A stretch of 64,000 nucleotides of DNA, taken from Methanolobus sediminis. Lineage in GTDB: Archaea; Halobacteriota; Methanosarcinia; Methanosarcinales; Methanosarcinaceae. Numbering within the stretch: the first letter of the stretch is position 1; each line of letters starts with the position of its first letter. Positions 157 to 17,041 of this stretch are shown in pieces. The notes under the pieces were generated by a model. That model saw only the letters and a list, made by a program, of their open reading frames with translations. It searched no databases and was not told the origin of the DNA. The DNA lies in assembly GCF_031312595.1 (NCBI RefSeq), contig NZ_CP133592.1, positions 2,294,001-2,358,000 of the forward strand, read 5' to 3'. The translations under genes were made by a program, and so were the position numbers.

Positions 157-491
157 TGATTATCACCGAAAAGAATTATTCGGGACATTCCTCATGTAAA
201 CTGTGTGAGAAAAGCTCTACTGTGTGATTGATACGATAAGGTAATGATATTGGCTGATGGGGCTAAATAACGTAGAGGATGTATGCGAGGTTCAAATCAA
301 ATCCTTTGTGTAGTTATTGGAAGGGGAAGTAGTAATCAAAAACACAATGTTTACTAACAATATGTAAAACTCGCTTTCATAAAAATACGGTTGAAGTTCT
401 TTTTTGAAACGTTAGTTAACTTTATTTAGAGTGATAACGATTTATTTTTTAAGTAATCTCATATTAATAAAATATTTAAGCAGATGATTTT
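157..491. other. Intergenic region with copy 1 of a degenerate repeat
   Basis: No gene is seen here. The first 100 bases or so (157-260) are the upstream region of the leftward gene at 1-156 and resemble 4,690-4,800: both read TATCACC, then a spacer, then GGACATTCCT with ATGTA following. The remainder is AT-rich and holds TATA-like runs (for example around 440-470) that could serve the rightward ParB-like gene starting at 492. No clear Shine-Dalgarno sequence precedes 492, which would suit a leaderless or short-leader message. Confidence 0.4.
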
Positions 492-1424: not shown

Positions 1425-1425
1425 A

Positions 1426-2217
1426 ATGACTTCTACAGAAGATTTTTCTATATATGAAAGCAAGTTACGAGAGTGTAGTAGTTATAGAGATAATTCAGTT
1501 CAAAATTGGGCTGATCAACTAGATCAATTAGACCTCGAAAAAGAAACAATCATAAAAATAATTGAAAATCTAAGAATTATCTCCTCTCGCGATATAAGGA
1601 CTATTTTGAGGGATTTAGTAGAACAAAACCAAGCAATTTTCCAACACCCCAACACTTTCATAACTAGCTTTGGATGTAGGGGTAAAAGTGGAGATTTGAT
1701 TCTATATGAATTTCGACATGCAGTTGATGGATATGATGATAAAATAATTGACTCTTGGCAAATCCCTGAAAAACCAACCGACAGTACTATAATATTTTTA
1801 GATGATTTAATTGGTACAGGAAAGCAATCTTGCGACTATATTGAAGACCAACTAAATTTAATTTTAACTTCACATCATGAATCATATTTAATTTGTTTGT
1901 TTGGCACTCCAAATGGAATCGAAGCTGTTGTTAATAGTACAAATTTCAATGTAATCTGTGGTGAGACTCTCTGTGAAGAAGAACATCAGTTTTACAGTGA
2001 TAAATGCATAATTTTTGAAGAGACTGAAAAAGAAAAAATAGGAATCATCAACAATTACTTGAAAGGCAAAGTAGATTTCGATAAGGGTTTACTTCTATGT
2101 TTTCACTATGCTATCCCAAACAATACCATGCCACTAATATGGAAAGAAAATTATCCATATGAAGATGATTTAGGAAACAAGAAAAAGTGGTACGCTTTAT
2201 TACCACGAAAATACTAA
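1426..2217 (+). CDS. PRTase-like protein, possible conflict-system effector
   Basis: The 263-aa product is read from the ATG at 1426, one base after the stop of the ParB-like gene; a TTG at 1408 is possible but less likely. At residues 122-135 there is a hydrophobic strand followed by DDLIGTGKQS, which has the form of the PRPP-binding loop of type I phosphoribosyltransferases (two acidic residues, then a T/S-G-rich loop). The rest does not match any biosynthetic PRTase that I recognise. PRTase-like domains of this kind are known from predicted bacterial conflict systems. With the coupled ParB-like gene and the adjacent restriction-modification pair, I infer a defence-related effector. The reaction and substrate are unknown. 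Confidence 0.6.
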   Translation: MTSTEDFSIYESKLRECSSYRDNSVQNWADQLDQLDLEKETIIKIIENLRIISSRDIRTILRDLVEQNQAIFQHPNTFITSFGCRGKSGDLILYEFRHAVDGYDDKIIDSWQIPEKPTDSTIIFLDDLIGTGKQSCDYIEDQLNLILTSHHESYLICLFGTPNGIEAVVNSTNFNVICGETLCEEEHQFYSDKCIIFEETEKEKIGIINNYLKGKVDFDKGLLLCFHYAIPNNTMPLIWKENYPYEDDLGNKKKWYALLPRKY

Positions 2218-2310
2218 TTCCTTCCATTAGAGTGTGATGTTGGTTTAAACCCCCATATTCTCTTGCTTTATTACCAATGGTAATCTTGTCTTAGAGTATA
2301 ATGATCTTGT

Positions 2311-2469
2311 GACAATTATTGGCAAGTATATGCAGCAAGGGAAGTCACAGACCTATTGTACAGATACTTCTTAGTCCATAGTTCTGACAAAGGATTCTCT
2401 CATTATCATTATACATTACTTTCATATTGCTTAGATGAAGATTATATAGTCTTGGGACATACAGAATAA
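2311..2469 (+). pseudogene. Possible remnant of a coding sequence
   Basis: Between the PRTase-like gene and the restriction gene there is an open stretch of 53 codons ending in TAA at 2467-2469. It has no in-frame ATG but reads like protein (segments YRYFLVHSSDKGFSHYHY and LDEDYIVLGHTE). An in-frame stop lies immediately upstream. It may be the decayed 3' end of a gene truncated when the neighbouring cassettes arrived. This is a weak call from composition only. Confidence 0.2.
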
Positions 2470-2511
2470 TTGCCTCTACAGAAGAAAGAAACAAGAGGCT
2501 TGAGGAATTTT

Positions 2512-3174
2512 ATGAAACCGAATTCACTTCCAACAGAAACAATTGAAAAGTTTCCAGCACTACAAGAAAAGTATGAAATTCATAATTATGGCTCAGCTAT
2601 TGAGATATTGACCCAAGCTTATCCGCAAGAATGGGATGAAATATGTCATCTTTTAAATGACTTCGTTATATACGAAAGTGAAATTATTAAAGGTGGAGGA
2701 AACGAATCAGATATTCCTAAAAAAATCGCGAACTTTTTAACTCCTCGACAATGGCAAGAAACAAAGCTAAGCGCCGATTTGGTTGTCAGACAAAAAAAAA
2801 GAAATTCAAAAGAGGAAGAACAGTTCATTATTAAGGACTATATGGTTGGATATAATATTGATCATTTGAAAAATAAAGTAGCTTTTGATGTAGAATGGAA
2901 TTCAAAAGATCAAACTTTTGATAGAGATTTATCTGCTTTTAGAGCTTTTCATGAAAACGGAATTATTTCATGTGGAATAATACTGACAAGAAGTGTAGAG
3001 TTAAATGATATATTTCATGATTTAGAAATAATGAAGAAATACGGTGCTTCAACAACACAAATGGGAAAACTTCTACCTAGAGTGAAAGCTAGAAGGCAAG
3101 GAGGATGCCCTTTACTTATTATAGGAATCAAATCTCCTTGTGTAATAAGGGCTTCGGATGTAGATAATTCATAA
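2512..3174 (+). CDS. Type II restriction endonuclease, BglII/BstYI family
   Basis: The 220-aa product is read from the ATG at 2512, which follows a good ribosome-binding site (GAGGAA); the TTG at 2470 is unlikely. It resembles the BglII/BstYI family, which cleaves GATC-centred palindromes. The central catalytic region contains VAFDVEWNSKD followed by FDRDLSAFR, giving the acidic metal-binding residues of a PD-(D/E)XK-like core. The C-terminal YGASTTQMGKLLPRV segment is characteristic of this family. It converges on an adenine methylase gene, and together they make a restriction-modification pair. The target is probably a (R)GATC(Y)-type site by family analogy; the exact specificity cannot be read from the sequence. 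Confidence 0.8.
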   Translation: MKPNSLPTETIEKFPALQEKYEIHNYGSAIEILTQAYPQEWDEICHLLNDFVIYESEIIKGGGNESDIPKKIANFLTPRQWQETKLSADLVVRQKKRNSKEEEQFIIKDYMVGYNIDHLKNKVAFDVEWNSKDQTFDRDLSAFRAFHENGIISCGIILTRSVELNDIFHDLEIMKKYGASTTQMGKLLPRVKARRQGGCPLLIIGIKSPCVIRASDVDNS

Positions 3175-3183
3175 TAGAGTTAT

Positions 3184-3230
3184 CAAAAAGGAAGGTGCAA
3201 ATAGGAATTTGTTCAATAACTTCCTTTTTG
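3184..3230. terminator. Bidirectional hairpin between restriction and methylase genes
   Basis: A perfect 11-bp inverted repeat (3184-3194 CAAAAAGGAAG, 3220-3230 CTTCCTTTTTG) lies between the two convergent stops. Each arm ends in a T-run on its own strand, so it can terminate both transcripts. The loop is 25 nt. Confidence 0.6.
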
Positions 3231-3235
3231 TCCAC

Positions 3236-4510
3236 TCATTCCTTCCACGCTAGAAGGGTATACTCCTTAACATCCCGATCTCGATCATTTTTTCTTCCCA
3301 TTGTCATGTGCTTGTGATTTAACTCTCTTATTTCTATGTGATAACCGCTCATGATACTTTCTGCAGTTTTTAATATACACTCAAGAGAGATCATCCCAGT
3401 ATTACTGTAGCTTAGAACTAAATTGCTGCTGCTTAAAGTTATACCTGTAAACAGGTCTTTGAAAGCATCTAATACCTTAGTTCGAATACAGAAAGGTGAC
3501 TGATGCCTATCATCCCTATATCTTCCCTTCACAACGCTGCCACCTTTAAACTGCAAATCCGGGTAATCATAGAGTACAAGAGTTTCTAAAGCATGGTAAA
3601 AGCGACTATAATGGACAAAACAATAAGGAGGATCAGCATACACAGTACATTTAGGTAGAGTTGCCAGCCTTTCTCTGAAATCCATAGTCGTAATTTCATG
3701 ATCAAATTCAGGAGGGATTGTCAAAAGCTCTGAAGAAACACTATCATATTTCCTAAGGAAGAAATCAGCTATTTTTTTCTGTCTATAATTTGAGATATCT
3801 TTCATTGAAGATTCAGTTTTTGCATCCCTGTATTGTGCATAGTGCCCTGTCCCCTGACTACAATATGCCATTGCATGCATAAGAGAAGAGATAATTAGAT
3901 GATAATGAGGTTCTGATTTTTGGGTTTCCGCAATTTCTCTGATCGCATCAATCCACAGACACTGATATGAACTCCACCATGTTCCTGAATAATATTTAGT
4001 AAAAAGGTGCCAATCAAAATCAAAAGAAACATCAATCAATGATTGATTTGCCTCTTCTACTAAGTTAAACTCTTTAAGCCCACCTTTTATATCGTCATAT
4101 GACAGACCTTCAGGCAAATGGCTCAAATTCTTTTGAACAATCTTTTCAGCTTTGGTTATAATTTCCTGCCCAGATATGAATGATTCTTCTTTTTTCCATG
4201 AAGTCAGATATGCATGTGCTATTGATTCGGAATATGCTTGGATATCATTTGAATATATTTTCACACTGTGCCCTAAGCTGCCAGCTATGCTACATGAGCC
4301 TGAAAAAAGATCGCATATTCCTCCTCCATTGTAAATTTCATTAATTCCATCTACAACAAAATCAAGTATTTTAGTTTTAGACCCCATATATTTAATAAAA
4401 GACGGGAAATCATTATTTACGAAATGTCCATCTTTTGGGATTGAATTAAAATCGGAACCTCCTTTTTGTTCCTTATTCTTGTCGTCAATTAATGTTTTTG
4501 TATTTTGCAT
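3236..4510 (-). CDS. DNA adenine methyltransferase, D12 class (Dam-like)
   Basis: The 424-aa product transfers a methyl group from SAM to the N6 of adenine. It has the ordered motifs of the D12/Dam class: KYMGSK near residue 40 (motif X), DLFSGSCS near 67 (SAM-binding motif I, FxGxG form) and DPPY in the C-terminal half (catalytic motif IV, here ADPPYCFVHYSRF). It is longer than E. coli Dam because of an inserted central region, presumably involved in target recognition. It faces the BglII/BstYI-like endonuclease and is its likely protective partner. Characterised BglII-family partners are often cytosine-N4 methylases, so a D12 adenine methylase partner is worth noting. The long leader to the right contains a TATA-like run on the minus strand near 4,560. 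Confidence 0.85.
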   Translation of the reverse strand: MQNTKTLIDDKNKEQKGGSDFNSIPKDGHFVNNDFPSFIKYMGSKTKILDFVVDGINEIYNGGGICDLFSGSCSIAGSLGHSVKIYSNDIQAYSESIAHAYLTSWKKEESFISGQEIITKAEKIVQKNLSHLPEGLSYDDIKGGLKEFNLVEEANQSLIDVSFDFDWHLFTKYYSGTWWSSYQCLWIDAIREIAETQKSEPHYHLIISSLMHAMAYCSQGTGHYAQYRDAKTESSMKDISNYRQKKIADFFLRKYDSVSSELLTIPPEFDHEITTMDFRERLATLPKCTVYADPPYCFVHYSRFYHALETLVLYDYPDLQFKGGSVVKGRYRDDRHQSPFCIRTKVLDAFKDLFTGITLSSSNLVLSYSNTGMISLECILKTAESIMSGYHIEIRELNHKHMTMGRKNDRDRDVKEYTLLAWKE

Positions 4511-4953
4511 GAAATTATTCCTTACAGAAAAGATGATGTTTGTTCATTTTTATTCCACTATTTATATTAATACGTACTTTTCATTTACCGCTTATTGCAT
4601 GATCATATAGTTAAAATATGCGCTGGCTAAAGGGAAGAATCGATTGTTGTTTTTATCTATTCATCAAATAACTAATAAATATTAAAAACTTCTGATATTA
4701 TGCTTCGCTTGTTATTGTTTATCACCAAATGAGTGTATTCAGGACATTCCTTATGTATTCTTTGTAATAATATTAGCCACTGCGATAGAAGGAATAAAGG
4801 CAATGCTATCACTCATCAACAGAATGATTTGCGCATGAGAAGAATGAGAGGAAGAAAGATAAGATAGACTTAGAAAATTATCAAATCTTCCGCACAAGAA
4901 GAGGCAAGGGTAAATACTCCCAACAAAAAATAAAAATATTCATAATTAACGTA
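4511..4953. other. Intergenic region holding degraded repeat copy 2
   Basis: There is no intact gene here. Bases 4,511-4,600 are the methylase promoter region. Bases about 4,685-4,775, read on the minus strand, match the promoter and first codons of the gene at 1-156 (GGTGATAA, CAATAAC in place of CAATGAC, then a shared TCAGAAGTTT), but the start codon is lost. The homology fades on both sides. Bases 4,800-4,950 show nothing further that I can name. Confidence 0.45.
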
Positions 4954-5391
4954 TTAGCAGATTTCAGCACAATCAACAGAAATATTATCCATATCATTGC
5001 CTTCTGATATCATTCTTTCATATCCTGCTCTTGTCAAACCTGTATAGGAATCTATTTTTTGTGGAACTTTCCCTCTTTCTCTCTTCCTAAGGTTAAGTTC
5101 CCTACCTTGAACATAAAGACCATGAAGTTTTATGTATGTCTCGATGCCTAACATCGTAACTCTATATTTCCACATTGTTTTATGCATAATAGGACATTTA
5201 CCTCTTCTTCTGCCTACATATCCATATCTAAGATAACGTTTAAGACCATCTCTTACTTTTTCAGGTTCAAGACCTATCATTTCTGCTATCTCGTTTGGAG
5301 ATGCATATCTTGGAAAATGATTATTAATCATTTCATCAAAAATTTGATACTTCAAATAATTATGTTTATGATAAACACCCGTGGCCTTCAT
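4954..5391 (-). CDS. Winged-helix DNA-binding protein (element regulator)
   Basis: The 145-aa product has a winged-helix-like segment in its first 60 residues (ASPNEIAEMIGLEPEKVRDG followed by LKRYLRYGYVGRRRGK: helix, turn, recognition helix, wing). It has a very basic middle (LNLRKRERGK) and a second small helical unit near the C-terminus (YTGLTRAGYERMISEG). No enzyme motif is seen. Proteins of this build are common in archaeal plasmids and proviruses as transcription regulators. The start is the ATG at 5391, which lies in a small inverted repeat (CCTTCA/TGAAGG) that could be a self-operator. Which element genes it controls is unknown. Confidence 0.6.
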   Translation of the reverse strand: MKATGVYHKHNYLKYQIFDEMINNHFPRYASPNEIAEMIGLEPEKVRDGLKRYLRYGYVGRRRGKCPIMHKTMWKYRVTMLGIETYIKLHGLYVQGRELNLRKRERGKVPQKIDSYTGLTRAGYERMISEGNDMDNISVDCAEIC

Positions 5392-5957
5392 AATTAAAAA
5401 ATTGTGAAGGACGGGACATTAAAATTTTGATGGTCTTATTCTTGGTAGAACCAAGAAATACCAAATTTCTAAAATGTAATACCAAAACTAAGACCCAATA
5501 TTGATAGTCAAAACAGTTAATTTGACCTCGTAGATTTGGTAAAACTAAATGTTTCACCAAACTTACGCATATTCATTTCATAGTTATGGCATTTTTAGTG
5601 CAACATCAAATCTGACTCATTGTAATCTCATGTAACGGATTGTAAAAAGTAGCCTGATATATTGATATTCGTTATTATAGAAATCCTGTTACAGAGGATG
5701 TACTTGATAGGAAAATAGGAAAATGATATTGAAGCAAGGGTAAGGGTGGAAGTGATTTAAGCCCTTACCCTTTATTTTTTAAGAGGTAGATGAAGGGAAT
5801 GGTAACCTTCACCTTTTCGTTTTTCTGATGGAAATGCGCATCTCATCATTGGATTGTGGCAATAAACCTAATTTTTGGAAGCAATAATATCTGCCACAAT
5901 CCAATCCTTCTCTATCTCACAATTAAAAATTCCTGTTCTTAGGACATGTATTTTTAG
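5392..5957. other. Gene-free region with three inverted repeats
   Basis: No credible protein gene is seen in these 566 bases. Three inverted repeats lie close together: AAGGGTAAGGG (5736-5746) with CCCTTACCCTT (5762-5772) followed by TATTTTTT; a weaker GATGAAGG/CCTTCACC pair near 5,789-5,812, also followed by T-runs; and GGATTGTGGCA (5851-5861) with TGCCACAATCC (5892-5902). The first has the form of a plus-strand terminator although no plus-strand gene precedes it, so an untranslated RNA transcribed from about 5,600 is possible. Confidence 0.4.
5736..5780 (+). terminator. Orphan intrinsic-terminator-like hairpin
   Basis: A perfect 11-bp stem (5736-5746 with 5762-5772) is followed by TATTTTTT on the plus strand. 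No plus-strand CDS lies upstream between 5,392 and 5,735. It could terminate a small RNA or simply insulate the minus-strand operon to its right. Confidence 0.45.
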
Positions 5958-6239
5958 TTAGTTTAGATTAAACGCCCTTATTGTGAGGAATGCACCAATA
6001 CCCATGATTGAATAACCAAATAATGTAAATATGGGTGATAGTACAGCTCTTGAGCCTTCCATGGAGTGATACGCAGCATCAGATTCGTTAATTCCTGTTC
6101 CTGCATATGTGCCACCAATAGAATACATTCCTACAAAAATGAGGATCGCAAGGGATACTATCAACACTGCACCGCCTGATACGTTCATATTAATACTCTC
6201 CTTTACTGTTCTTGCATTCCATCTGCCATATCTTTCCAT
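5958..6239 (-). CDS. Small two-helix membrane protein, possible spindle-virus-type capsid protein
   Basis: The 93-aa product has two strongly hydrophobic helices (about residues 23-45 and 67-88) separated by a polar loop containing NESDAAYHSMEGSRA. The neighbour at 6366-6665 has the same layout and shares the pattern (D/E)-x-D-A-x-Y in the loop plus a C-terminal TLxxxxIMxxGA segment, so the two are paralogues. Pairs of short proteins with two hydrophobic helices are the form of major capsid proteins in spindle-shaped archaeal viruses (fusellovirus VP1/VP3, His1 VP21). I infer this role from form only. A pair of small membrane subunits of another kind is equally possible. The ATG at 6239 is used. 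Confidence 0.5.
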   Translation of the reverse strand: MERYGRWNARTVKESINMNVSGGAVLIVSLAILIFVGMYSIGGTYAGTGINESDAAYHSMEGSRAVLSPIFTLFGYSIMGIGAFLTIRAFNLN

Positions 6240-6365
6240 TCATAATGTATATCCGTCCATTCAATTAGTGTTATTTTCTTTTCGCTTGATGCTATAAGCT
6301 AAAAAATAATAATATAGCAAAAAATAAGTAAAAATAATTATACAATCATAAAAAATGTTATGAGA

Positions 6366-6665
6366 TTAGAGGAATCCCATATATCTCATAATCGCGCTAG
6401 CTCCGAGGGCCAAAATCATAAGTGCCGCAAGTGTGTAGCAACTCTCGATATTTCCAATAACACTCTGAGACAGGTTATAGAATGCATCTGTTTCATCAAG
6501 ACTTGCTGAACTTACTACCCCATTGAGGATAACAACGCCAATAATCAGAATACAAGCTACTCTTATAATAATTGTTGTTACTTCTGCTGCATCTCCAGGT
6601 TCCTGCTCGTCCATCTTTGCTTCGACCTTTTTGGTCATTCTCTTTACTGCTGCAATATCCATCAT
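6366..6665 (-). CDS. Small two-helix membrane protein, paralogue of the 5958-6239 product
   Basis: The 99-aa product has a charged N-terminus (about 30 residues, rich in K, E and D), a first hydrophobic helix (about 30-50), the polar loop SLDETDAFYNLSQS and a second helix (about 75-95). It is the first gene of a likely two-gene minus-strand operon; a 126-bp gap separates it from its paralogue. A TATA-like run (GGTATATAAAG) lies about 60 bp upstream near 6,730 and could serve either divergent transcript. The same structural or capsid hypothesis applies as for its paralogue. No enzymatic motif is visible. Confidence 0.5.
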   Translation of the reverse strand: MMDIAAVKRMTKKVEAKMDEQEPGDAAEVTTIIIRVACILIIGVVILNGVVSSASLDETDAFYNLSQSVIGNIESCYTLAALMILALGASAIMRYMGFL

Positions 6666-6900
6666 TTATGAATCATTCCTATTTTAGTAACACCAAATGT
6701 TACTTTCTAAAAAATCATATCTGATTCGGTATATAAAGAGCTATGGAGAGTTTTGAACAAACAGGAGTTAACAAAAGTGTAAAACTTTAATACGTTTATA
6801 TACTGTTTTAAAATGATATATTAACAGTTTAAACATTATCATTTTCGATTACAGGAAATCTACCGAGTTTACATGTCCTAAAACTTTTATAAGAGTGTTT

Positions 6901-7650
6901 ATGGTATCGAATACAAGTTTGAATGATATTGATTTTGAGGAACGAGTCAAGTATCTTGATGGACTTGAAACTAAAATGTATGGTCTTCTTAGTGCCAAAC
7001 CAAAATACGGAGAAAAAGCCAAAATATTCTCAGAAATCAATAAAATTGAAAAGCAGATAAAAGATATTGAAGACACAATTCTTGAGAAAAGTAAGTATAG
7101 CAGTATCAAGGTCAAAAAAGAAAATGATATTAGGACTGTATCAGCTCATAAAAGAATTCAATCAAGACGACAGATTCGCAAAGGCAAAGTTCGTGAACTA
7201 AGAACCAAGTACAGTACCATTTATCGAGATAATTTTGATAAGTTGAAGGCAGAAACATTGCAGGAAAGGAAAGCTCAAAAGGATGCTGAAAAAGAAGCAG
7301 AAAAGCAAGCTGAGAGAGAAGCAATTGCTGAAAAAGAAGCTAAAATCAAAAAACATTATAGCAACGTTTCTTTAGAAAAGCAGGAAAAAGAGTTGAAATT
7401 AATCAGAAATCAGCTCAATTATATTCAAAGTGAAAGCAGAGCGGCATACAAAGAATACAGAGCAACAAAATCCTTAGAAGCAAAAGCACGATGGAAGTAC
7501 TTGAAAGAAGTGGAAAACGAGTTAGTTGCGGAGCGTAGTGTTCTGTATCATAACGTAATATGGTTGAAAGCGCAGGCAAAAGCCAATGCTATTGTTATGG
7601 AAAGAAACAAGCTATTTGATGATAATGATGCAATCGAGGTGCTTGCATGA
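6901..7650 (+). CDS. Coiled-coil protein of the element
   Basis: The 249-aa product is read from the ATG at 6901; a GTG two codons upstream is an alternative. It is nearly all charged helix, with a long coiled-coil run rich in K, E, A and Q in the middle (around residues 115-150, KDAEKEAEKQAEREAIAEK) and further heptad-like stretches on both sides. No globular domain or catalytic motif is recognisable. It overlaps the next gene, a small membrane protein, by an ATGA junction, so the two are co-translated. A structural, tail, scaffold or membrane-associated role in the element is plausible but unproved. A TATA-like GTTTATATACTG at 6,795 precedes it. Confidence 0.55.
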   Translation: MVSNTSLNDIDFEERVKYLDGLETKMYGLLSAKPKYGEKAKIFSEINKIEKQIKDIEDTILEKSKYSSIKVKKENDIRTVSAHKRIQSRRQIRKGKVRELRTKYSTIYRDNFDKLKAETLQERKAQKDAEKEAEKQAEREAIAEKEAKIKKHYSNVSLEKQEKELKLIRNQLNYIQSESRAAYKEYRATKSLEAKARWKYLKEVENELVAERSVLYHNVIWLKAQAKANAIVMERNKLFDDNDAIEVLA

Positions 7651-7934
7651 TTCCCTGGGAAATGTGGGCTACAATGTTAGCTCTGGGAATTCTGAGTATG
7701 GGCTATAATTGGTATGTCGAGGATGATGAAAACTATACAGATATCCTGACAGGCTTTGCATCAATGATATTTTACATGATATGCGGAATAACTCTTTTTG
7801 GTGGAGTTGTCACCCAAACAATGACTTATGCAAATCAGTATTTTGCATGGCTGTTTATTGCCATCGGCATTATTGAAGGGATTATTCTTTTCACAAGAGT
7901 AACGGACTTATGGCACACTGATAAAACGGAATGA
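7647..7934 (+). CDS. Small membrane protein with three predicted helices
   Basis: The 95-aa product has hydrophobic segments at about residues 3-20, 35-55 and 65-85, an acidic loop (VEDDENYTD) after the first, and a polar C-terminus. Its ATG lies within the TGA of the coiled-coil gene (ATGA overlap), so translation is coupled. The family is not recognised. The pairing of a soluble coiled-coil protein with a small membrane protein would suit a virion, secretion or holin-like function, but nothing in the sequence decides this. Confidence 0.5.
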   Translation: MIPWEMWATMLALGILSMGYNWYVEDDENYTDILTGFASMIFYMICGITLFGGVVTQTMTYANQYFAWLFIAIGIIEGIILFTRVTDLWHTDKTE

Positions 7935-8081
7935 TAATATCCTGAACATATCATTTCCAATCTTTTATTCCTCTTTTTCTGACCTGAAGATCACTACAAA
8001 GAATAGACCTTACTTTGATGGAAAATCTCTTCAAGTGGTCGGATAGTGCCCTGATGAAGTCTCAGCACAATCTCTTGTGAC

Positions 8082-8133
8082 GGATTAAAAAAGAAAAAAG
8101 GTATAATAGGGTTGGTTAGTTGACCTATACCTT
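8082..8133 (-). terminator. Terminator of the minus-strand gene at 8125
   Basis: An inverted repeat (8098-8105 AAGGTATA, 8126-8133 TATACCTT) overlaps the stop codon region. On the minus strand it is followed by CTTTTTTCTTTTTT. This is a typical hairpin plus T-run. Confidence 0.5.
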
Positions 8134-8640
8134 CAGATTTTTCCGTTCAAAGACGTATTTCATGCCCTCTTCATATTTTCTGCCACATAGAATAAACTTA
8201 TATTGCAGCAAACTGCAGGTTCTTTCAATTTCACGAAGACTGAAATTGACATTCGGATATTGGAATTCTAACTTCCTTTTAAAGTCTATAGGATAATTCC
8301 ATCCGAACTTCCCAGTAGTTTGGTCATAGTGTTTAAAAGCCAATGTCTGAATTTCCTTCTCTAAATTGATTTCAATAGGGGAGCTTACAGCATCAATTTT
8401 CCTTTCTTTGAGCACTTGTTCTCTTGCTTCTGGGAAACTCAAGTTTTCAGATTCCATCTTTTCCATAATAAGTGCCTGAAAATCTTTCGGTTCAATGACA
8501 CTGCTTTCAGTCTTAGTCTCATTGTCGATGCTTATAGGCGTACTATCATTACTTTTCTTGACTGATGGTTGTGGCCACTCTGGCAATTTATGAGCGATGC
8601 TTTCATCATCTATGCCTTCGGCTCTTTCTTCATTTATCAC
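8125..8640 (-). CDS. Hypothetical protein with acidic disordered N-terminus
   Basis: The 171-aa product has a low-complexity, Ser/Thr/Glu-rich first 60 residues and a more ordered C-terminal half (NYPIDFKRKLEFQYPNVN, then FSLREIERTCSLLQ) that could be a small winged-helix fold. No family is recognised. It is the last gene of a leftward run (9584 to 8125), with a 36-bp gap to the gene before it, and ends in a clear hairpin terminator. A DNA-binding or replication-accessory role would fit but is a guess. Confidence 0.45.
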   Translation of the reverse strand: MINEERAEGIDDESIAHKLPEWPQPSVKKSNDSTPISIDNETKTESSVIEPKDFQALIMEKMESENLSFPEAREQVLKERKIDAVSSPIEINLEKEIQTLAFKHYDQTTGKFGWNYPIDFKRKLEFQYPNVNFSLREIERTCSLLQYKFILCGRKYEEGMKYVFERKNLKV

Positions 8641-8676
8641 TTATATTCACCTCAATTTATTTAAATCTCTGTTAGC

Positions 8677-8946
8677 TCATGTTAATAAGCTAAAATTTGC
8701 TGAAACATGATAGTTTTCAGGGTTTTCTTGTCTCAATGCCAACGTTTTTTGGATTAATTCTTTTAAATCCCCTTTACCACCTATTGCTTTGTATGCTTCA
8801 TCTATATCGAAAACGAAGAATTCTTCGCTTAATGCTTCGTGTGCTTCATCTACAGTGAAGAATTTAAATTCCCCATCACTTGCTAAGTGTGCTTTAAGTT
8901 CAAGTTTTTTAAGTAAATGAAGAAGCTTATTATCACTTTCTATCAT
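8677..8946 (-). CDS. Hypothetical small protein
   Basis: The 89-aa product is charged and soluble, with an internal near-repetition: FKFFTVDEAHEALSE and FFVFDIDEAYKAIGG both follow the pattern F-x-V/I-D-E-A-x-x-A. This suggests two copies of a short helix-forming unit. The family is not recognised. It lies between two other unrecognised leftward genes, probably in one transcript. Confidence 0.4.
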   Translation of the reverse strand: MIESDNKLLHLLKKLELKAHLASDGEFKFFTVDEAHEALSEEFFVFDIDEAYKAIGGKGDLKELIQKTLALRQENPENYHVSANFSLLT

Positions 8947-9107
8947 AGTTTTTCACCTTTTGTTATAATCAGGTGCGCGCATCTATTCTCTACTACTACT
9001 CGTGAGTACTTATAGGACGATTTTTGTTTTTGATTATAGAAAAAAAATAAGAAACGGTGAATGATAATGAAAATATAATCGGAAATGGTGATTGATAACG
9101 AAAATTA

Positions 9108-9584
9108 CTACTCTATTAATTGCCATCTTCTTGGCTTGAATGGGTTACCATTGTCTTTGAATAGTTCTTTAATCTTTCTTTTTCTATCTTCCTTATTCTT
9201 CGTCAAATTATCAAGTCTTAAACGAGCAAGTTCGGGTGTACAGCCAACTATCTCAACAATTTCACTTGTTGTTCGATATTCAGTACCTTTAAAAGCATCT
9301 GTGAAAGCAGAATCAGGATAATCAAGAATTGTTTGACCATTTATTTTGTCACGTGATTTAATTTCATGCTTTTTAGTTTCTTCCTCAACAGGTTCTTCCT
9401 TTGGAGTCCATCCTACATGAGCACGATTTATTATCAAAGTATCTCTAAAAAATTCCCGATGCAATTCGTTTTCGTATTTTTCTATTAATTCTTCTTCTTT
9501 TCGATGTTGTTGGTCTATACATTCCTCAATATAATCTTCATATCCATCTACTTCTTCATCTGTTGGAATATTGTCAGAACTCAT
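9108..9584 (-). CDS. Hypothetical protein with a helix-turn-helix-like segment
   Basis: The 158-aa product is read from the ATG at 9584; a TTG three codons upstream also opens the frame. The first half is very acidic and helical (EDYIEECIDQQHRKEEELIE). The second half holds TTSEIVEIVGCTPELARLRL, which fits a helix-turn-helix of the kind that begins with a T-S cap, then a basic tail (KEDRKRKIKELF). It is probably an element-encoded regulator or DNA-binding accessory protein. Two imperfect 30-bp tandem units (about 9,051-9,108) lie just beyond its 3' end. Confidence 0.45.
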   Translation of the reverse strand: MSSDNIPTDEEVDGYEDYIEECIDQQHRKEEELIEKYENELHREFFRDTLIINRAHVGWTPKEEPVEEETKKHEIKSRDKINGQTILDYPDSAFTDAFKGTEYRTTSEIVEIVGCTPELARLRLDNLTKNKEDRKRKIKELFKDNGNPFKPRRWQLIE

Positions 9585-9720
9585 ATATCTCAAATTAGTA
9601 TAGTAATGCAGTATATAATATAATTACTGTAACCTTGGTAGAAATTAGATGATAATCTAAGTTACTGTACAATTATTTCTGTTACTTGATTTGTGAGAAA
9701 AGAATGCTGACAAAAAGATA

Positions 9721-10407
9721 TTACCAATCAATAAAAAGCGGGACATCAACAGCATAGTCATCCAAACAGTCTACATAATCTTTAAATTCAACATCATCAA
9801 AATCCATTGCTGAAAGGACTTTATGTTTATTGAGATTTGCATTTATTGTATCAACAGTTTCTTTTGGCAATTTTAATTTGTAGACAACAACTAGGACTGC
9901 CATAAGTTCATAAATCTGTTTTGTAACACCATAATGATCCCTTCCCTTGAATGGACTATGGACAAAATGATTTCTCTGAAGCTGAACAAACCCCATAATA
10001 GCTTCCGAACGTTCATATTGTTCTTGAGTTAATTTGTCCTCCAAGTCATTTAGTACATATTCTTTGACGAATTTATAATTTCGATTACCATATATTGATT
10101 TGTAGGATTCAAGATATTCATCCCAATTAATCTTTAAGGCACATATTTTGAGAAGATATTCATAAGCTACACCAAATAGTGTATAGATAATTTTCATATC
10201 CATTAGGTCATTATTTCCTAGAGAATCTACTAAATAGAGGTACCTCGAAAACACCTTTAAGTTATCGGCAAAGAAACGTTCTTTGTCTTCTTCATTGAAC
10301 TTACTGAATGCACTGTAATCTTTATAGAATTCATTGCATTCCTTATATATTGCTCCGAAATCCAAATGCCTATCGTAGTTATTGGTGTCGTTTTTGGTTA
10401 TTGACAA
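9721..10407 (-). CDS. HEPN-like protein, candidate RNase effector
   Basis: The 228-aa product is all-helical in appearance. Its third quarter carries LQRNHFVHSPFKG, an R-x4-H motif (R145, H150) at the end of a helix, as in the catalytic site of HEPN ribonucleases. The preceding helices (residues 70-100) contain the conserved hydrophobic and acidic positions expected of a HEPN bundle. The start is a TTG at 10407 (an in-frame stop lies not far upstream and the first internal ATG is about 70 residues in). It lies 34 bp downstream of a class III-cyclase-like gene on the same strand. HEPN effectors are common in antiviral and toxin systems, so I infer that a nucleotide made by the neighbour may control this RNase. 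Activity is untested. Confidence 0.55.
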   Translation of the reverse strand: MSITKNDTNNYDRHLDFGAIYKECNEFYKDYSAFSKFNEEDKERFFADNLKVFSRYLYLVDSLGNNDLMDMKIIYTLFGVAYEYLLKICALKINWDEYLESYKSIYGNRNYKFVKEYVLNDLEDKLTQEQYERSEAIMGFVQLQRNHFVHSPFKGRDHYGVTKQIYELMAVLVVVYKLKLPKETVDTINANLNKHKVLSAMDFDDVEFKDYVDCLDDYAVDVPLFIDW

Positions 10408-10441
10408 TTTATCGCATCCAATAATAGTTAATCACATTACC

Positions 10442-11251
10442 TTAAATCCTAAAAAATTCAAATTCTGATTTGTTTTCATAGTTGATTAACAGCGTTTCAT
10501 CTTCTGGGTAGTAAGTTTGACAAAAAAAGTCATGGTAATTAGCTACCCATTCATATTTGGATATAACATCATAAGAATGAGGGGATTTCAATTCCTTTTC
10601 CACATTTGTTTTATGGGACTTTAGATATTCCAAAACCTTTGGTAGATTAGTTTCATCGCGGTTATAGTACAAAATAGCAAGATAATTTATGAAATAATGA
10701 CCATCTTTGTCTTTTAATAAGAAGTGAGTATATACGTCTCCTTTTGTAGTCCAATGATCAGCAAAAAACCGAACTAACTTATAGACTTTTGTACTTATAA
10801 TAATTCGAGGGTTTATTGCGGTTTCACTTTCAAGGTTATGTGCTTCAACAATTGGATAGCCAAAAGCAATTTCTTCATCAACATATGTATAACCTACTGC
10901 AACTGCTCCTCTTACAAAATATCCTTTAAGTGCCAAGCTAAGTTGATAATAGCTAAGAAGCTCAAAAAGTTCTATACAATCATTTGCTTCTATATCTTCT
11001 AATTTTTTAGTATTAGGATATTTCAGTAACAAATTATCAGTGAAAATTTTAATAATACCTTTTTCATCAGGTGTTTTTAGGTATTCTAGCCCTTCATGCA
11101 GTGCCTCATAAATTTTGTTTAGCTCATCATTAGCTTCAATGGGATTATTTGAACATTTTTTTAATAATCCTGTATATCCAAGTATGTCTGCAAATGCAAG
11201 AAATGTAAATGTAACATTCAATGGTTTTTTTGTAATAGTCATTCCACTCAT
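10442..11251 (-). CDS. Class III nucleotidyl-cyclase-like (Pycsar/mCpol-like fold) protein
   Basis: The 269-aa product starts with a hydrophobic strand ending in FADILGYTGLL (D22). Fifty residues later comes IIKIFTDNLLL (D72), then FVRGAVAVGYTY (114-122) and a conserved-looking FGYPIVEAHNLESE region followed by PRIIIS. Two metal-binding aspartates about 50 residues apart in hydrophobic strands, with a following R-G-A/G strand, is the layout of class III nucleotide cyclase palm domains, including defence cyclases of the Pycsar type. No GGDEF motif and no adenylate-cyclase purine-specifying residues can be assigned. It is the first gene of a two-gene leftward operon with the HEPN-like gene. I infer a signal-nucleotide synthase activated by infection. 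It could also be a catalytically altered relative. Confidence 0.55.
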   Translation of the reverse strand: MSGMTITKKPLNVTFTFLAFADILGYTGLLKKCSNNPIEANDELNKIYEALHEGLEYLKTPDEKGIIKIFTDNLLLKYPNTKKLEDIEANDCIELFELLSYYQLSLALKGYFVRGAVAVGYTYVDEEIAFGYPIVEAHNLESETAINPRIIISTKVYKLVRFFADHWTTKGDVYTHFLLKDKDGHYFINYLAILYYNRDETNLPKVLEYLKSHKTNVEKELKSPHSYDVISKYEWVANYHDFFCQTYYPEDETLLINYENKSEFEFFRI

Positions 11252-12162
11252 ACATATTTAATTATTTTTATAGTACTTAACGATAATTAGTATTGTCGTG
11301 TTTCCCATGTATATGACCATTCATATGGAACTACAATAATGCCCACTGAGCAAAATAAAGTGGACAAATAAAAAGGTCATCTCCATTTTTACTTAAAAGT
11401 CATATGCAGTTTATCTCATACATTTATTGTTTTATTTGTTGATGTTAGAATAATAATTGCAGAAGAGTTAATGAATATGATTAAGATCGAATAAACACCA
11501 TCTCTACATATCATTCCTTCAAACTCTCAATCAAACTATAATCATTATCTAATATACAAATTATTAACTACATAATAAGTATTAGGTGCCATGTTTTTAT
11601 TTGAAATTATGGTTTTTTTAGTTAAATGATATGTGTAAAATAAGTATTAAGAGCCATGAATTATGAAATTATGAACCCAATTATGTAGAAAAACAGTATG
11701 TATCGCCATGAATTATGAAATTATTGATTTTTGAGAAACTAACTATATACATGTCATGAAATAGCACAAATTATATTTCCTTCTTATATATATTAATACA
11801 TTCGTATGTAGAAAAAAAGAACCCTATACATATACGTATAATACATAATTACATAATTACATAATTATTATTCGGTTTTATGGAGCCTAATCGTGATTCG
11901 CAAAATTATGAAATCTTGGGAAATTATGAAATCTGGGATAAATCACGCTGAAATTATGTAAAATAACATTACAAATATGCACATCTTATCATTATCATCA
12001 TTTATGACTACTTCTTTTCATCAAAAAAACAATCATATTCGTGGATTTCCAAAATGAAGGTATATGGTTCCTTCAAACTCTCCATAAGGTTATATACTTG
12101 GAAAATGAATATAAGTATTGAAAGTAAATAAGAATCATAAAAAGATAACAGACACCGGGCAG
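11252..12162. other. AT-rich iteron-like region, candidate replication origin of the element
   Basis: No convincing gene occurs in these 900 bases. A unit containing GCCATGAATTATGAAATTAT recurs (GCCATG at 11588, 11653 and 11705; the second and third copies are nearly identical over about 20 bases, the first is partial). Three tandem ACATAATT octamers follow (11843-11866). Then two head-to-tail copies of AAATTATGAAATCT(T)GGG (11903-11920, 11921-11937) are bracketed by CGTGATT (11892-11898) and AATCACG (11941-11947), with further AAATTATG words at 11604 and 11951. Direct repeats, tandem octamers, very high A+T and a position directly upstream of the replication operon are the usual signs of an iteron-type origin. 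Confidence 0.5.
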
Positions 12163-12273
12163 ATGAAGAGTCGTCGTTTTTTAGATGATTTCCGAGCATT
12201 GAAAACCGTTTTAAAATCTTTTAAAGCCTTCACAGATACGCTATTTTTTATGATTCAGGTCGTGAGAACTTGA
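12163..12273 (+). CDS. Very small basic protein (36 aa), first gene of the replication operon
   Basis: This is an ATG-initiated open frame of 36 codons rich in Arg, Lys and Phe (begins MKSRRFLDDFRALK). Its TGA overlaps the TTG start of the next small frame (TTGA), which is the junction expected of translationally coupled genes. A TATA-like GGTTATATACTTGG lies at about 12,088-12,101, some 65 bp upstream. The function is unknown and it is too short for family assignment. Confidence 0.35.
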   Translation: MKSRRFLDDFRALKTVLKSFKAFTDTLFFMIQVVRT

Positions 12274-12410
12274 ATCAAACCGATATTAATCAGACAGTAA
12301 CCACATTGGTTGCAGACCGTAAAGATGTATTAGAGTCACTTGCAGCAACAGGTAGCCCAACAGAAAAGGCACTTGCTGAGACATTTTTGGAAATTTCAGC
12401 AGGGGTGTAA
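12270..12410 (+). CDS. Small helical protein (46 aa), TTG start
   Basis: A 46-codon frame is read from a TTG that overlaps the preceding stop. The product is polar and helical (segments TTLVADRKDVLESL and EKALAETFLEISAGV), with composition typical of real protein. It ends 2 bp before the ATG of the ribbon-helix-helix gene, so it is probably translated as part of the same short operon. No family is recognised. Confidence 0.4.
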   Translation: MNQTDINQTVTTLVADRKDVLESLAATGSPTEKALAETFLEISAGV

Positions 12411-12412
12411 GA

Positions 12413-12574
12413 ATGGGTAGGCAAGCTAGGTATGATAACAAAAAACAAATGTGCATTTCTTTTACGCCTACCACATATGACAGGATTGATGAAGAACGTG
12501 GAGTTATTCCCAGAAGTGCTTTTGTATCTAATATTGTTGAACAGTATTTTGCAGGTAAGCAGGTGGACAACTAA
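12413..12574 (+). CDS. Ribbon-helix-helix (CopG-like) regulator, 53 aa
   Basis: The 53-aa product fits the ribbon-helix-helix fold. A basic strand (KKQMCISFTPTTYDRID) is followed by a helix, a turn with RSAFVSNIVEQYF and a short tail. In this fold the strand pair contacts DNA and the second helix forms the dimer. The gene follows a GGGGTG ribosome-binding site and precedes the DUF927 gene by 125 bp. The gap contains two nested perfect inverted repeats, which are the expected operator form for such a dimeric regulator. A plasmid copy-control or autoregulatory role for the replication gene is likely. Confidence 0.65.
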   Translation: MGRQARYDNKKQMCISFTPTTYDRIDEERGVIPRSAFVSNIVEQYFAGKQVDN

Positions 12575-12597
12575 AAAAAGAAGAAACGAGGAAAAAT

Positions 12598-12670
12598 CAG
12601 GAACCTCCTGATTCAATTGACAAACCCAGTTAATAAATCAATTGAATCCTAATGTAAGTAATGGTTCCTG
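12598..12670. promoter_or_regulatory. Nested inverted repeats, candidate operator upstream of the DUF927 gene
   Basis: The outer arms are CAGGAACC (12598-12605) and GGTTCCTG (12663-12670). The inner arms are GATTCAATTGA (12610-12620) and TCAATTGAATC (12638-12648). Both pairs are perfect and lie between the RHH gene and the ATG at 12699. They could be an operator, a replication-control structure, or an attenuating hairpin in the mRNA. Confidence 0.5.
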
Positions 12671-12698
12671 ATTGATTCCCGTATCAAGAGGGAATATC

Positions 12699-14585
12699 AT
12701 GATAACTAAAGATGATATTAATTTTGATGGTGACATGGAAGGGAGGATTCTTATTGATGGCACATTTGAAATTCCTGAAACATTCTTCAATACCGATTTC
12801 TACATTCCTCGCGGTTATGAAGTAAAAGATCGTTGTGTGAAAGAAATCCGATTAGATGAAAATGATAATCCTGTCCTTAATGCAGTTGGAATACCAATAG
12901 GTTATCAAATCTGTGATAGTGCTTGCATGATAACAGGTAGAAGTCTTGGGCTTGATGACAATGAACGTTATTTGAAGGTAACATTTCATGATGGTCGTAA
13001 TTGGTTGCACTATTGGATAAAGCAGAAGGAAATATTCACCAAGAAAGGTATATTTGAACATCTTGTAAGCCAAGGATTCGTTACAGATGAGAAAGATGCT
13101 GCAAGAGTAACCAAGTATTTTAGAAAATGCTATACTGTCAATGATGCATCGAACACATTAGTACAAGGCATAGTTGCAAGTTCTAATGGATGGAAACATG
13201 ACAATACCTGTTTTGTCTTCGGTACAAGAATGATTTGTGAAAGTGGTGTTGACAAAGAAGTCTTCTTAACCGATAGCAGCCTTGAAGAAAAACTTAGTGC
13301 AAAAGGTACAGTGGAAGAATGGGTAGCAGGCAATAAGAGGTTATTAGCTTTTCCAAAACCAAGGTTTGTTTGCTACGCAGCAATGACGGCACCATTGTTG
13401 GAACCTCTTAATGTTTCATCATTTTTAGTAGACTCAACAGGCGGTTCAAGTACAGGAAAGACAACAGAAGATGATGCAGCAATCAGTCAGATTGGAAATC
13501 CAAAAGCATTGAAACATAAGGGTGAAAGCACAGTAGCTTCAGTTGAAGAAAATGCAAAGATGTTTTCAGGACTGCCTTTGTATTATGATGAAACAACCAA
13601 TACATCAGAAAAAACAGCACAAAATATCATTTACACCATTGCAAATGAAACCGAAAAGGGTCGTGCTAGGAAGGATGGTGGATTAAGGGAAACTAAATCA
13701 TGGAAATGCGTTGGATTGACAACAGGCGAGAAGTCGCTTATCAATTATGCAGGAAATACAGGACAGTATGCAAGGGTCATTACACTTAAAGGTGGAATTG
13801 GTCAATCAGGCATCAAGGATATTGTTGATGAGTCTAAAGCTACAAACGTAAACAACTATGGTCATATTATTGAACCATTCCTTAGGAAAGTATTCAAGCA
13901 CAAAGCTGAACTTAATGTTTGGTTTCGGGAATATAAATCCCAGTTTGAAGTAATGGACAATGATATCAATAATCGTTTGATTGATTATTTTGCAGCAATT
14001 GCAGTTGCGGGTAAGTTGCTTGAAGAAGTTTATCAGGAAATAGGTATCGAACCTGTAAACCATTTGGAAATTGTCAATCAGATTTATGAAGAGGTTGTAT
14101 TGAACAATCCAATTAAAGACCAAGCAATTGTAGCACTTGAAAGAGTTTATGATTGGATGTCTTCTCATTCAGGTCATTTTATAAATGAGATGAGTATAGC
14201 CGACATCAGAACATGGGTTACGGTTTCAGATAAAGCTCCTGATATTGTTTATGGTTGGTATGGAAATCCAAAAGGTATTATGCATATTGATTTTAATAAG
14301 TCCGAGTTGGATAAATTCTTAGAACGAGAAGGTTTCAATCCAAGCTATGTTATTGACTATTGGAAGAATTACGGGATTTTAACCGTTGGCAGCATAAAGG
14401 ATAGAAAAACAGGACAACCAAAAGATGATCCATCAGGTGCGAGAAATGTGTCACATTACATTAAAAACCAAAGTAAGAAGACACCACAAAGAGTGATTAG
14501 CATACAAGAGGAAAAGTTCAAACAGGTATTGGAATTAACAGATTCAGATATAATAGAAAGAATAGGTCGCAAATCTGTATGGTAA
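12699..14585 (+). CDS. DUF927-domain ATPase, putative replication helicase/primase component
   Basis: The 628-aa product is read from the ATG at 12699, preceded by AGAGGGA; an in-frame TTG at 12672 is less likely. The central half matches the DUF927 family found in plasmid, phage and provirus replication proteins. A Walker A GGSSTGKTT lies at about residues 248-256, after a hydrophobic strand. A Walker B-like LPLYYDET follows about 50 residues later, then a conserved polar region (RKDGGLRETKSWKCVG) and arginine-containing AGNTGQYARV. The N-terminal 200 residues have no recognisable TOPRIM or primase motif. It follows the iteron-like region and the RHH gene, so it is the probable replication initiator or helicase of the element. 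Confidence 0.75.
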   Translation: MITKDDINFDGDMEGRILIDGTFEIPETFFNTDFYIPRGYEVKDRCVKEIRLDENDNPVLNAVGIPIGYQICDSACMITGRSLGLDDNERYLKVTFHDGRNWLHYWIKQKEIFTKKGIFEHLVSQGFVTDEKDAARVTKYFRKCYTVNDASNTLVQGIVASSNGWKHDNTCFVFGTRMICESGVDKEVFLTDSSLEEKLSAKGTVEEWVAGNKRLLAFPKPRFVCYAAMTAPLLEPLNVSSFLVDSTGGSSTGKTTEDDAAISQIGNPKALKHKGESTVASVEENAKMFSGLPLYYDETTNTSEKTAQNIIYTIANETEKGRARKDGGLRETKSWKCVGLTTGEKSLINYAGNTGQYARVITLKGGIGQSGIKDIVDESKATNVNNYGHIIEPFLRKVFKHKAELNVWFREYKSQFEVMDNDINNRLIDYFAAIAVAGKLLEEVYQEIGIEPVNHLEIVNQIYEEVVLNNPIKDQAIVALERVYDWMSSHSGHFINEMSIADIRTWVTVSDKAPDIVYGWYGNPKGIMHIDFNKSELDKFLEREGFNPSYVIDYWKNYGILTVGSIKDRKTGQPKDDPSGARNVSHYIKNQSKKTPQRVISIQEEKFKQVLELTDSDIIERIGRKSVW

Positions 14586-14684
14586 TCCGCCATACACATT
14601 TCTTTTTTAAAATAATACATTATACCACTGCGGCATAGAAAATTGAATGTAGGCGATGTACGATAGGAAGAACGGTAAAAAAAA

Positions 14685-15902
14685 TTACTGTTTTAGTTCT
14701 GCTTTCTTACGTTCATATAGCTCATGTATCTCTGGGCTTTTCAATATTATTGATATCATTTCATCAATAGTATTGTCCTTCTCCTGTTGTGCTTTCTCGT
14801 CAAGCCCATAGCCACATTTTATACAGAACCGATGCTTTTTATCTTTTTTATTATATTCCTTACATCTCGGACATCTTACAGGTTTTGATGGGTCAACTTG
14901 TTCTTCAAGCTTCTTGATTCCATACATTGCATCTATTGCATTATCTGTATCTCTTCCTGATAGATGAACATAAATTTCAGGCATATTTGAACCAGGAGTC
15001 CAACCTAAATGCTGCTTCATTTGTTGTTCAGTTAGATGATTTGCTAAATGGGTCGCCCTTGAGTGTCGGAAATGATGAGGATTTACAGGTTTCTTGATTC
15101 CTGCTTTCTTTGCAACACGTTTTATTTTGTCACTCATTGCTTGTTTCTTTATTGGCTTGATATTTTTATCCAAACTTACCCATAATGCTGCATTCGGGTC
15201 ATCTTTCAAAGGATGTGCATCAATCCATTGGCGCAGATAACTTGCTGCCATAACAAGTTTAACTCTTCTTGAACCTGTTTTGCCTGATGGGAATTGAATA
15301 TGTGCAAGACCTTCACTATCAAACTCAACATGATATATCAAACAAGACATTATTTCTCCGATTCTTGCTCCTGATTCATAAAGGGTAGCAATGAAGGCTC
15401 TATCTCTTGCTGTGCTTTCATGTTCAATTAATGTATAAACATCTTCTATAGTTAGCAGGTTTTCAGGTAGCTTCCTTTGACTCCTTGGATTTCTGACCTT
15501 TAACATACTAAGAAGTTCATCCTTTTTCATATATTTCAAAAAATCACGTAAATGCATCTTACGAGTTGCTTTTGATTTTTCTGATAATGGTTTTCCTCTA
15601 TTGCTAATATATGTTTCAAGCATTGTTAAATAATCATCAATGTCTGATTCAGATATCGAACTTAATTCAAAATCTGTATTGGTCAAAAGAAAAACCATAC
15701 TATCTATCATATTGCAGATTGAAGTTTTCTTAATCACATCTTCCCCTTGTCGTACTAAGTAGTTTATGTATCCATCAGCTATTTCAATGTTAGAATCTGT
15801 TGTTAAAATAGGAACAAATCTACCTGTGGATGTGATTGTATATTCTGTACCTAATCTCTTCAAACGAGCTCTTGCGTTCTTTAATTCAACTACATATGAC
15901 AT
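14685..15902 (-). CDS. Tyrosine integrase (XerC/D-like) with C-terminal zinc ribbon
   Basis: The 405-aa product from ATG 15902 catalyses site-specific recombination; an upstream ATG at 15962 adds 20 residues but would sit very close to the TATA-like run. It has a SAM-like N-terminal core-binding domain (about 40-130) and a full catalytic domain: R180 in ESGARIGE, the HxxR box in NPHHFRHSRATHL (H276, R279), H298 in QHLGW and the nucleophile Y311 in EIYVHLSG. The C-terminus adds a zinc ribbon (CPRCKEY and CIKCGY), an arrangement common in archaeal integrases. It lies at the right edge of the island, transcribed inward. A GTGAAAG ribosome-binding site favours the shorter start. Confidence 0.85.
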   Translation of the reverse strand: MSYVVELKNARARLKRLGTEYTITSTGRFVPILTTDSNIEIADGYINYLVRQGEDVIKKTSICNMIDSMVFLLTNTDFELSSISESDIDDYLTMLETYISNRGKPLSEKSKATRKMHLRDFLKYMKKDELLSMLKVRNPRSQRKLPENLLTIEDVYTLIEHESTARDRAFIATLYESGARIGEIMSCLIYHVEFDSEGLAHIQFPSGKTGSRRVKLVMAASYLRQWIDAHPLKDDPNAALWVSLDKNIKPIKKQAMSDKIKRVAKKAGIKKPVNPHHFRHSRATHLANHLTEQQMKQHLGWTPGSNMPEIYVHLSGRDTDNAIDAMYGIKKLEEQVDPSKPVRCPRCKEYNKKDKKHRFCIKCGYGLDEKAQQEKDNTIDEMISIILKSPEIHELYERKKAELKQ

Positions 15903-16054
15903 ATCTTTCACAAGTTCTATATTACCTTTAAAGGATATATATGTTATGTAATTAACTAACATTATAATATATAATATATATTCATTAAAACGGATGAACA
16001 GGGTTTTATCCTATCATACGAATATATTTTATATATTATAATAGAAGGAGTGTT

Positions 16055-17041
16055 GTGGAAATGGATGTTCTGTGGCTTGACCAGTCTGATGTTCGAAGTG
16101 TAATCGATATGCCTCTTACCCTGTCTGCTGTGGAGACCGGATTCAGGGAGCATGGCCTTAAAAAGGTACAGATGCCTCCTAAATCATATCTTTATTTTGA
16201 TAAGCACAATGGTGATCTGCGCACCATGCCATCGTTTATGGAAGAAAAGGACATTGCAGGTGTTAAAATAGTCAACGTTCACCCGGATAACCGCGAAAGA
16301 GGTCTTCCTACCGTTATGGCCGTGATAGTTCTCAACTCTACGGAAACCGGTGCACCTCTTGCTATCATGGATGGTACGCATGTGACTGACATGAGGACCG
16401 GTGCCGCAGGTGGAGTTGCTGCAAAATACCTTGCACGCAAAGATTCACGTGTGGTCGGAATGGTTGGCACAGGCGGCCAGGCCAGAACCCAACTGCTGGC
16501 ATTGTCAGAAGTTATGGATATCGAGGAAGTAAAGATCAGTTGCAGAAATGCTGCTCATTGTGAATCCTTTGAAAAGGATATGCAGAAAGTGGTCAGCTGT
16601 GACTTTACAAGAAAAGAGAGCATCAGGGATGTATGCGACTGTGATGTCCTTGTAACTACTACTCCATTGAGGGAGCCGGTTGTAAAGTCAGAGTGGCTTC
16701 GTGAAGGTACACATATTAATGCCATCGGTGCCGATGCCATGGGTAAGCAGGAACTGGAATCTTCAGTTATGAAAAAGGCAAGGATAATTGTTGATGATAT
16801 TGTCCAGGCATCCCATTCAGGAGAGGTGAATGTACCGCTGTCCCAGGGAATTATCTCTGAATCAGATATCTATGCCGAACTTGGCGAAGTGGTCGCAGGA
16901 GTAAAAAAAGGTCGTCTTTCTGATGAGGATATTACTATATTTGATTCTACGGGGCTTGCAGTGCAGGATCTTGTGACTGCAAATATTGTTTATACAAAAG
17001 CTGTGGAGCTGGGTATCGGGAAAAAGATGAAGTTGTTCTGA
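16055..17041 (+). CDS. ala: Alanine dehydrogenase, ornithine cyclodeaminase/mu-crystallin family
   Basis: The 328-aa product is collinear with the archaeal alanine dehydrogenase of Archaeoglobus (AF1665 type), which interconverts L-alanine with pyruvate and ammonia using NAD. Visible landmarks are the QMPPKSYLYF substrate region, KIVNVHPDN, the MDGTHVTDMRTGAAGG segment, the Rossmann glycine loop GMVGTGGQA and the late INAIGADAMGKQEL and FDSTGLAVQD motifs. A related ornithine cyclodeaminase activity cannot be excluded. The GTG at 16055 follows a GAAGGAG site by 5 bp; the ATG at 16061 is an alternative. It marks the first chromosomal gene after the island, and a TATA-like run (ATATTTTATATATTATAAT) precedes it. 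Confidence 0.85.
   Translation: MEMDVLWLDQSDVRSVIDMPLTLSAVETGFREHGLKKVQMPPKSYLYFDKHNGDLRTMPSFMEEKDIAGVKIVNVHPDNRERGLPTVMAVIVLNSTETGAPLAIMDGTHVTDMRTGAAGGVAAKYLARKDSRVVGMVGTGGQARTQLLALSEVMDIEEVKISCRNAAHCESFEKDMQKVVSCDFTRKESIRDVCDCDVLVTTTPLREPVVKSEWLREGTHINAIGADAMGKQELESSVMKKARIIVDDIVQASHSGEVNVPLSQGIISESDIYAELGEVVAGVKKGRLSDEDITIFDSTGLAVQDLVTANIVYTKAVELGIGKKMKLF

Follow-up and report, generated by a model that had tools for sequence, protein, structure and literature searches.

A repeat region at positions 11574-11960 of the window (the whole 64,000-nucleotide stretch of Methanolobus sediminis DNA analysed here) is very probably the replication origin of a 17.2-kb integrative methanogen element, of the iteron type and served by a DUF927 helicase similar to SaPI Rep and Cch. 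The preliminary description of this DNA had proposed such an origin, and the proposal was supported by a defined element, by an adjoining relative of initiator helicases, by an arrangement kept in a second element from another genus of the same family (genome G131), and by repeat arrays that often lie beside the DUF927 genes of the order. The features discussed below are listed in Table 1.

Table 1. Features of the integrated element and its candidate origin, numbered from the first position of the window.
Feature	Position	Strand	Remarks
Part of the 17.2-kb integrated element within the window	1-15977	.	
attL (second copy of the 16-bp repeat)	about 1.2 kb left of the window; L002 18805-18820		
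Candidate replication origin (iteron region)	11574-11960	.	G+C 24.8% compared to 33% for the element; conserved in G131
Cluster A: three composite units (GTAT..., GCC, then AATTATG words)	11573-11733	+	AATTATG at 11605, 11659, 11667, 11679 and 11711
AT-rich spacer between cluster A and the tandem octamers	11741-11835	.	candidate unwinding region
Three perfect tandem octamers, ACATAATT (AATTATGT on the opposite strand)	11843-11866	-	
Cluster B: two AAATTATGAAATCT units within CGTGATT/AATCACG	11892-11958	+	AATTATG at 11904, 11922 and 11952
TATA-box-like TTATATA, upstream of the small ORF, RHH-like and DUF927 genes	12090-12096	+	consensus match only
Small ORF, 46 aa, immediately preceding the RHH gene	12270-12410	+	
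Small ribbon-helix-helix (RHH)-like protein, 53 aa	12413-12574	+	
DUF927 protein, predicted self-loading initiator helicase	12672-14585	+	Walker A GGSSTGKT
Tyrosine recombinase (integrase), right end of the element	14685-15962	-	Phage_integrase 5.5e-22; 51% identical to the G131 integrase
attR, TTATAATATATAATAT (16-bp direct repeat)	15962-15977	.	

The element was found to span 17,173 bp including both 16-bp direct repeats. At empty sites in relatives of the same genus, host DNA left of the first repeat runs straight into DNA right of the second; in one of these (L011, from genome G025) the two flank matches overlap by 20 bp at the 16-bp repeat, and an identical junction was found in L012-L016. 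An integrase, att repeats and an empty site, the marks of an integrative element, were thus all detected, and the element has a G+C content of 33% compared to 41% in the DNA to its right. The integration site (15962-16055) is intergenic, AT-rich and outside any tRNA gene.

Apart from the genes near the repeats, the element carries defence-like cargo at 492-4510 (a ParB_N protein, a PRTase-CE protein, a BglII-type endonuclease and a D12-class adenine methyltransferase) and, at 5958-8946, clustered small proteins, some strongly hydrophobic, that gave no convincing Pfam or PHROG match and may represent its structural or membrane components. The protein encoded at 10442-11251, divergent from the RHH-DUF927 operon, had no Pfam match at 0.01; its start presumably resembles nucleotide cyclases. 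The second contig of the genome (L071, G000:C2; 3506 bp) has genes for a tyrosine recombinase-like protein and for one of 452 aa, with function assigned by eye, and is perhaps a small plasmid. Against a rolling-circle replicon, a Pfam scan of 18 element proteins detected no HUH family Rep. Likewise, no phage-hijacking or packaging genes were recognised by Pfam or PHROGs among the scanned proteins, many small ones of which had no match at all.

The motifs of the repeat region had been described as separate repeat families ahead of the RHH and DUF927 genes, and both their presence and their position were confirmed. GCCATG units begin at 11588, 11653 and 11705 (the last two units identical over 20 bases), the tandem octamers at 11843, 11851 and 11859, and the AAATTATGAAATCT pair at 11903 and 11921, inside CGTGATT (11892) and AATCACG (11941). 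By contrast, the families proved not to be unrelated: all are versions of a single octamer, AATTATG(A/T), arranged in three clusters of alternating orientation, with five forward copies of AATTATG in cluster A, three tandem reverse octamers and three forward copies in cluster B. GCCATG alone was unremarkable, with 28 more copies elsewhere in the window. AATTATG or its complement CATAATT occurs 11 times in these 387 bp, in both orientations, where 0.23 copies are expected from the rest of the element; outside the region, 16,786 bp of element sequence hold 10 copies, and the 48,023 bp of the window beyond the element another 10. A longer form, AATTATGAAATTATG, allowing at most one mismatch, had four of its five genomic matches inside the region. 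When 69 kb (window and left flank) were scanned as 1373 windows of 387 bp, 11574-11960 ranked first for word lengths of 8, 10 and 12, and its repeat score was reached by none of 1000 dinucleotide shuffles. No Rfam family matched within 11200-12700.

The exact triple octamer was found, among 185 genomes of the order, in the genome of the window (G000) and in G131, and as part of a longer tandem run in G176. In the last case, a short Methanosarcina spelaei contig (L191 2885-2931; G176 C160, which agrees with NZ_LMVP01000160 in the position of the octamer) carries a tandem run of the octamer CATAATTT, a word identical to that of the window origin. In other collections the triple octamer was detected in 3 viral stretches and 27 genome stretches, mostly bacterial.

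The protein encoded downstream of the repeats matched Pfam DUF927 at 1.9e-45. Its ORF opens at a TTG (12672), and the ATG at 12699 is the likelier start. Only two good matches were found in the PDB, a pathogenicity-island protein (8tch; residues 45-501, 1.5e-24) and an active helicase (5dgk; residues 246-507, 7.1e-15). For a C-terminal DNA-binding domain, the Cch helix-turn-helix (HTH_56) gave a weak match at 3.2e-5, whose 24.4 bits lie below the Pfam cut-off of 26.2. The DUF927 and PDB homologies place the protein among the relatives of SaPI Rep and of the SCCmec helicase Cch. No close relatives were detected by peptide patterns in viral_contigs or genome_contigs; two relatives, in L067 and L068, have an NrS-1-type domain in front, and in L068 (5558-5741) 37-bp tandem repeats precede a DUF927 gene by about 2.7 kb. 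The RHH-like protein had no Pfam match, and its structure model, of low confidence, shows two helices.

The element in G131 has an integrase (51% identity), an RHH-like protein, a DUF927 protein (57% identity over 618 residues) and the origin in common with the window element; the side and the orientation of the origin differ. The RHH-like proteins precede DUF927 in both elements and are related (score 74 compared to a maximum of 44 in 1000 shuffles). A small ORF of similar size at the same place scored 41 compared to a shuffle maximum of 42, which is not significant. No further matching pairs were detected at 1e-3 among the compared ORFs, of which only the longest of overlapping ones were kept, such that very short genes could be missed. 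A simple search revealed no 14-base direct repeat at the ends of the G131 element.

The origin-like region of G131 follows DUF927 and is inverted with respect to it, whereas that of the window is upstream. Its internal order is the same as in the window, with three clusters of alternating orientation and exactly three central tandem octamers, and cluster B is nearest to the helicase operon in both. Local alignment of the two origins scored 247 compared to a maximum of 110 in 300 shuffles. Over 11640-11960, 204 of 313 aligned bases were identical, with the highest identity in cluster A (11640-11740; 73/101) and the lowest in the AT-rich spacer (46/87). Since the G131 region is inverted and on the other side of DUF927 with its internal order kept, the origin appears to have moved or flipped as a unit while staying with its helicase; the occurrence of the same octamer in a second element is based on this one pair.

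DUF927 genes elsewhere in the order were often accompanied by repeats of their own. A five-sequence DUF927 profile, searched against the 185 genomes, matched 30 loci in 24 genomes. With a first threshold for a repeat cluster (a word score of at least 8, reached by none of 200 shuffles), nearby clusters were detected at 18 of the 30 DUF927 loci, compared to 3 of 27 loci of the integration-site neighbour gene and 6 of 30 integrase loci. At a score of at least 20, a threshold chosen after the scores had been seen, 13 of the 30 DUF927 loci (the window's own among them) had a cluster, compared to 1/27 neighbour-gene loci (Fisher p = 0.0005) and 5/30 integrase loci (p = 0.047). Because integrase loci also carry clusters, part of the signal is explained by association with mobile DNA. 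Eleven of the 13 strong clusters lie downstream of DUF927, and the repeat words differ among loci (e.g., GGTATGTTTAT, ACCCGTAACC, AAAAATGATAC and GGTAAGGTTAA), with an 11-bp spacing in several. Among nine 20-kb DUF927 loci, the DUF927-side window was the top repeat cluster in four only.

DUF927 relatives on viral contigs did not share this pattern. The 57 loci were reduced to 33 distinct ORFs when duplicates were dropped, and none of the 30 with enough downstream sequence had a downstream array at a score of at least 20, compared to 2 of 109 other ORFs. Sixteen plasmid records with DUF927 proteins were available, and three were inspected (Geobacillus, Photobacterium and Streptomyces). In the free circular Geobacillus plasmid pSJEF4-2-2, TGTCACAACG arrays directly follow the DUF927 stop, succeeded by an AT-rich stretch and then by the word inverted. 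The Photobacterium plasmid is similar, with GTTACAC-type arrays, and the Streptomyces signal is weaker; in the Geobacillus and Streptomyces records the single strongest repeat window lies elsewhere.

The closest likeness is to the staphylococcal islands. Published work describes Cch as a DUF927 protein related to SaPIbov1 Rep, and SaPI Rep as binding, through its C-terminal domain, to iterons that immediately follow its gene (available text of PMC7581432). Like the SaPIbov1-type islands, the window element combines a DUF927-type helicase with short repeats beside the rep gene, and an AT-rich candidate origin with multiple short iterons, as in a SaPI/Cch-type replicon, was found. By contrast to SaPI, the element is archaeal, no satellite packaging genes were recognised among its scanned proteins, and its origin is upstream rather than directly downstream of the rep gene, the downstream position being found in G131. 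Because of the origin position, the lack of recognised packaging genes and a C-terminal match below the curated cut-off, the window element was not filed as a SaPI or PICI; it may nevertheless work like replicons of the SaPI/PICI type. SCCmec Cch is likewise a DUF927 helicase, homologous to the window protein over the ATPase (5dgk), with the weak helix-turn-helix match noted above. SCCmec uses serine recombinases, whereas the window element carries a tyrosine recombinase. Among archaea, thaumarchaeal NitAR2-E2 is an integrated element with a Cch homologue, and the available text of PMC6563490 describes no origin for it. The methanogen plasmid origin studied in PMC9569500 is of the rolling-circle type, and the pC2A-derived Methanosarcina replicon, with its HUH-type RepA, is unlike the window element (as given in the available part of that paper).

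The origin may at the same time serve in regulation. In many iteron plasmids, origin repeats double as an operator for autoregulation, and here some of the repeats (e.g., the CGTGATT/AATCACG pair) could act as an autoregulatory operator within an origin bound by DUF927. Cluster B is nearest to the operon promoter and the inverted pair is present in the window; the pair is, by contrast, not conserved at the aligned place in G131. This dual role, which overlaps the best explanation, is a possibility that we hold tentatively.

A stricter version of the regulatory reading is that the repeats are no origin and instead form the operator of the RHH-like protein, or its partition site, controlling the RHH-DUF927 operon or segregating the element. 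RHH proteins often bind short tandem repeats, the repeats of the window are upstream of the RHH operon, and the RHH-like protein is kept in G131. Against this, the G131 region is entirely downstream of DUF927 and away from the RHH promoter, and the approximately 350 bp between the integrase and the small ORF/RHH genes of G131 are free of AATTATG. Arrays downstream of DUF927 at other loci also disagree with an RHH operator, as does an origin that changed place or orientation as one block without parting from its helicase, which speaks against a simple RHH operator. As for a partition site, the Pfam scan of the 18 element proteins revealed no partition ATPase. We therefore regard an RHH operator or partition site as improbable.

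An origin of the pRN1 type, in which a long stem-loop is recognised by a Rep protein, is highly unlikely. In the Sulfolobus plasmid pRN1 the rep gene likewise comes after a gene for a small repressor, and the origin remains functional at a new place; pRN1 differs in that Rep is a primase with an SF3 helicase and the origin is a stem-loop (available text of PMC4234260). The window region folded no better than its shuffles (z +1.14; 89 of 100 shuffles folded at least as well), such that a secondary-structure origin was rejected, and no primase domain was found by Pfam in the DUF927 protein. A functionless, chance build-up of AT-rich words in a promoter region, for which the low G+C content of the region would speak, is scarcely credible and already largely refuted by the shuffle result and by collinear conservation in another genus.

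An iteron origin paired with the DUF927 helicase thus remains the preferred reading. The element and its ends, the clustered octamers, the homology of the helicase and its conserved pairing with the origin can be read directly from the DNA; from there we infer how excision, binding, melting and replication would proceed. The tyrosine recombinase would first excise the element. The C-terminal domain of DUF927 would then bind the AATTATG(A/T) octamers, and the protein may assemble as hexamers on the oppositely oriented clusters, melt the AT-rich DNA and serve as the replicative helicase, with host primase and polymerase copying the element. Control of the operon probably falls to the RHH-like protein.

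We conclude that the region represents, as judged from sequence, a putative SaPI/Cch-type iteron origin in an archaeal element, placed unusually upstream of its helicase gene. No description of such an archaeal iteron origin with DUF927 was found in the titles and abstract openings of the open-access papers searched. More broadly, the balance tips modestly towards a class of integrative elements in the Methanosarcinales with SaPI/Cch-type DUF927 helicases, each with an iteron word of its own that would define a compatibility group, and with the origin as a portable module that moves or flips while its internal order is kept. The octamer and the DUF927 C-terminus make ready test pairs. If true, the finding would connect archaeal integrated elements with the system by which staphylococcal islands replicate, and methanogen genetics would gain, in the iteron origin with its helicase partner, a second and independent type of replicon.
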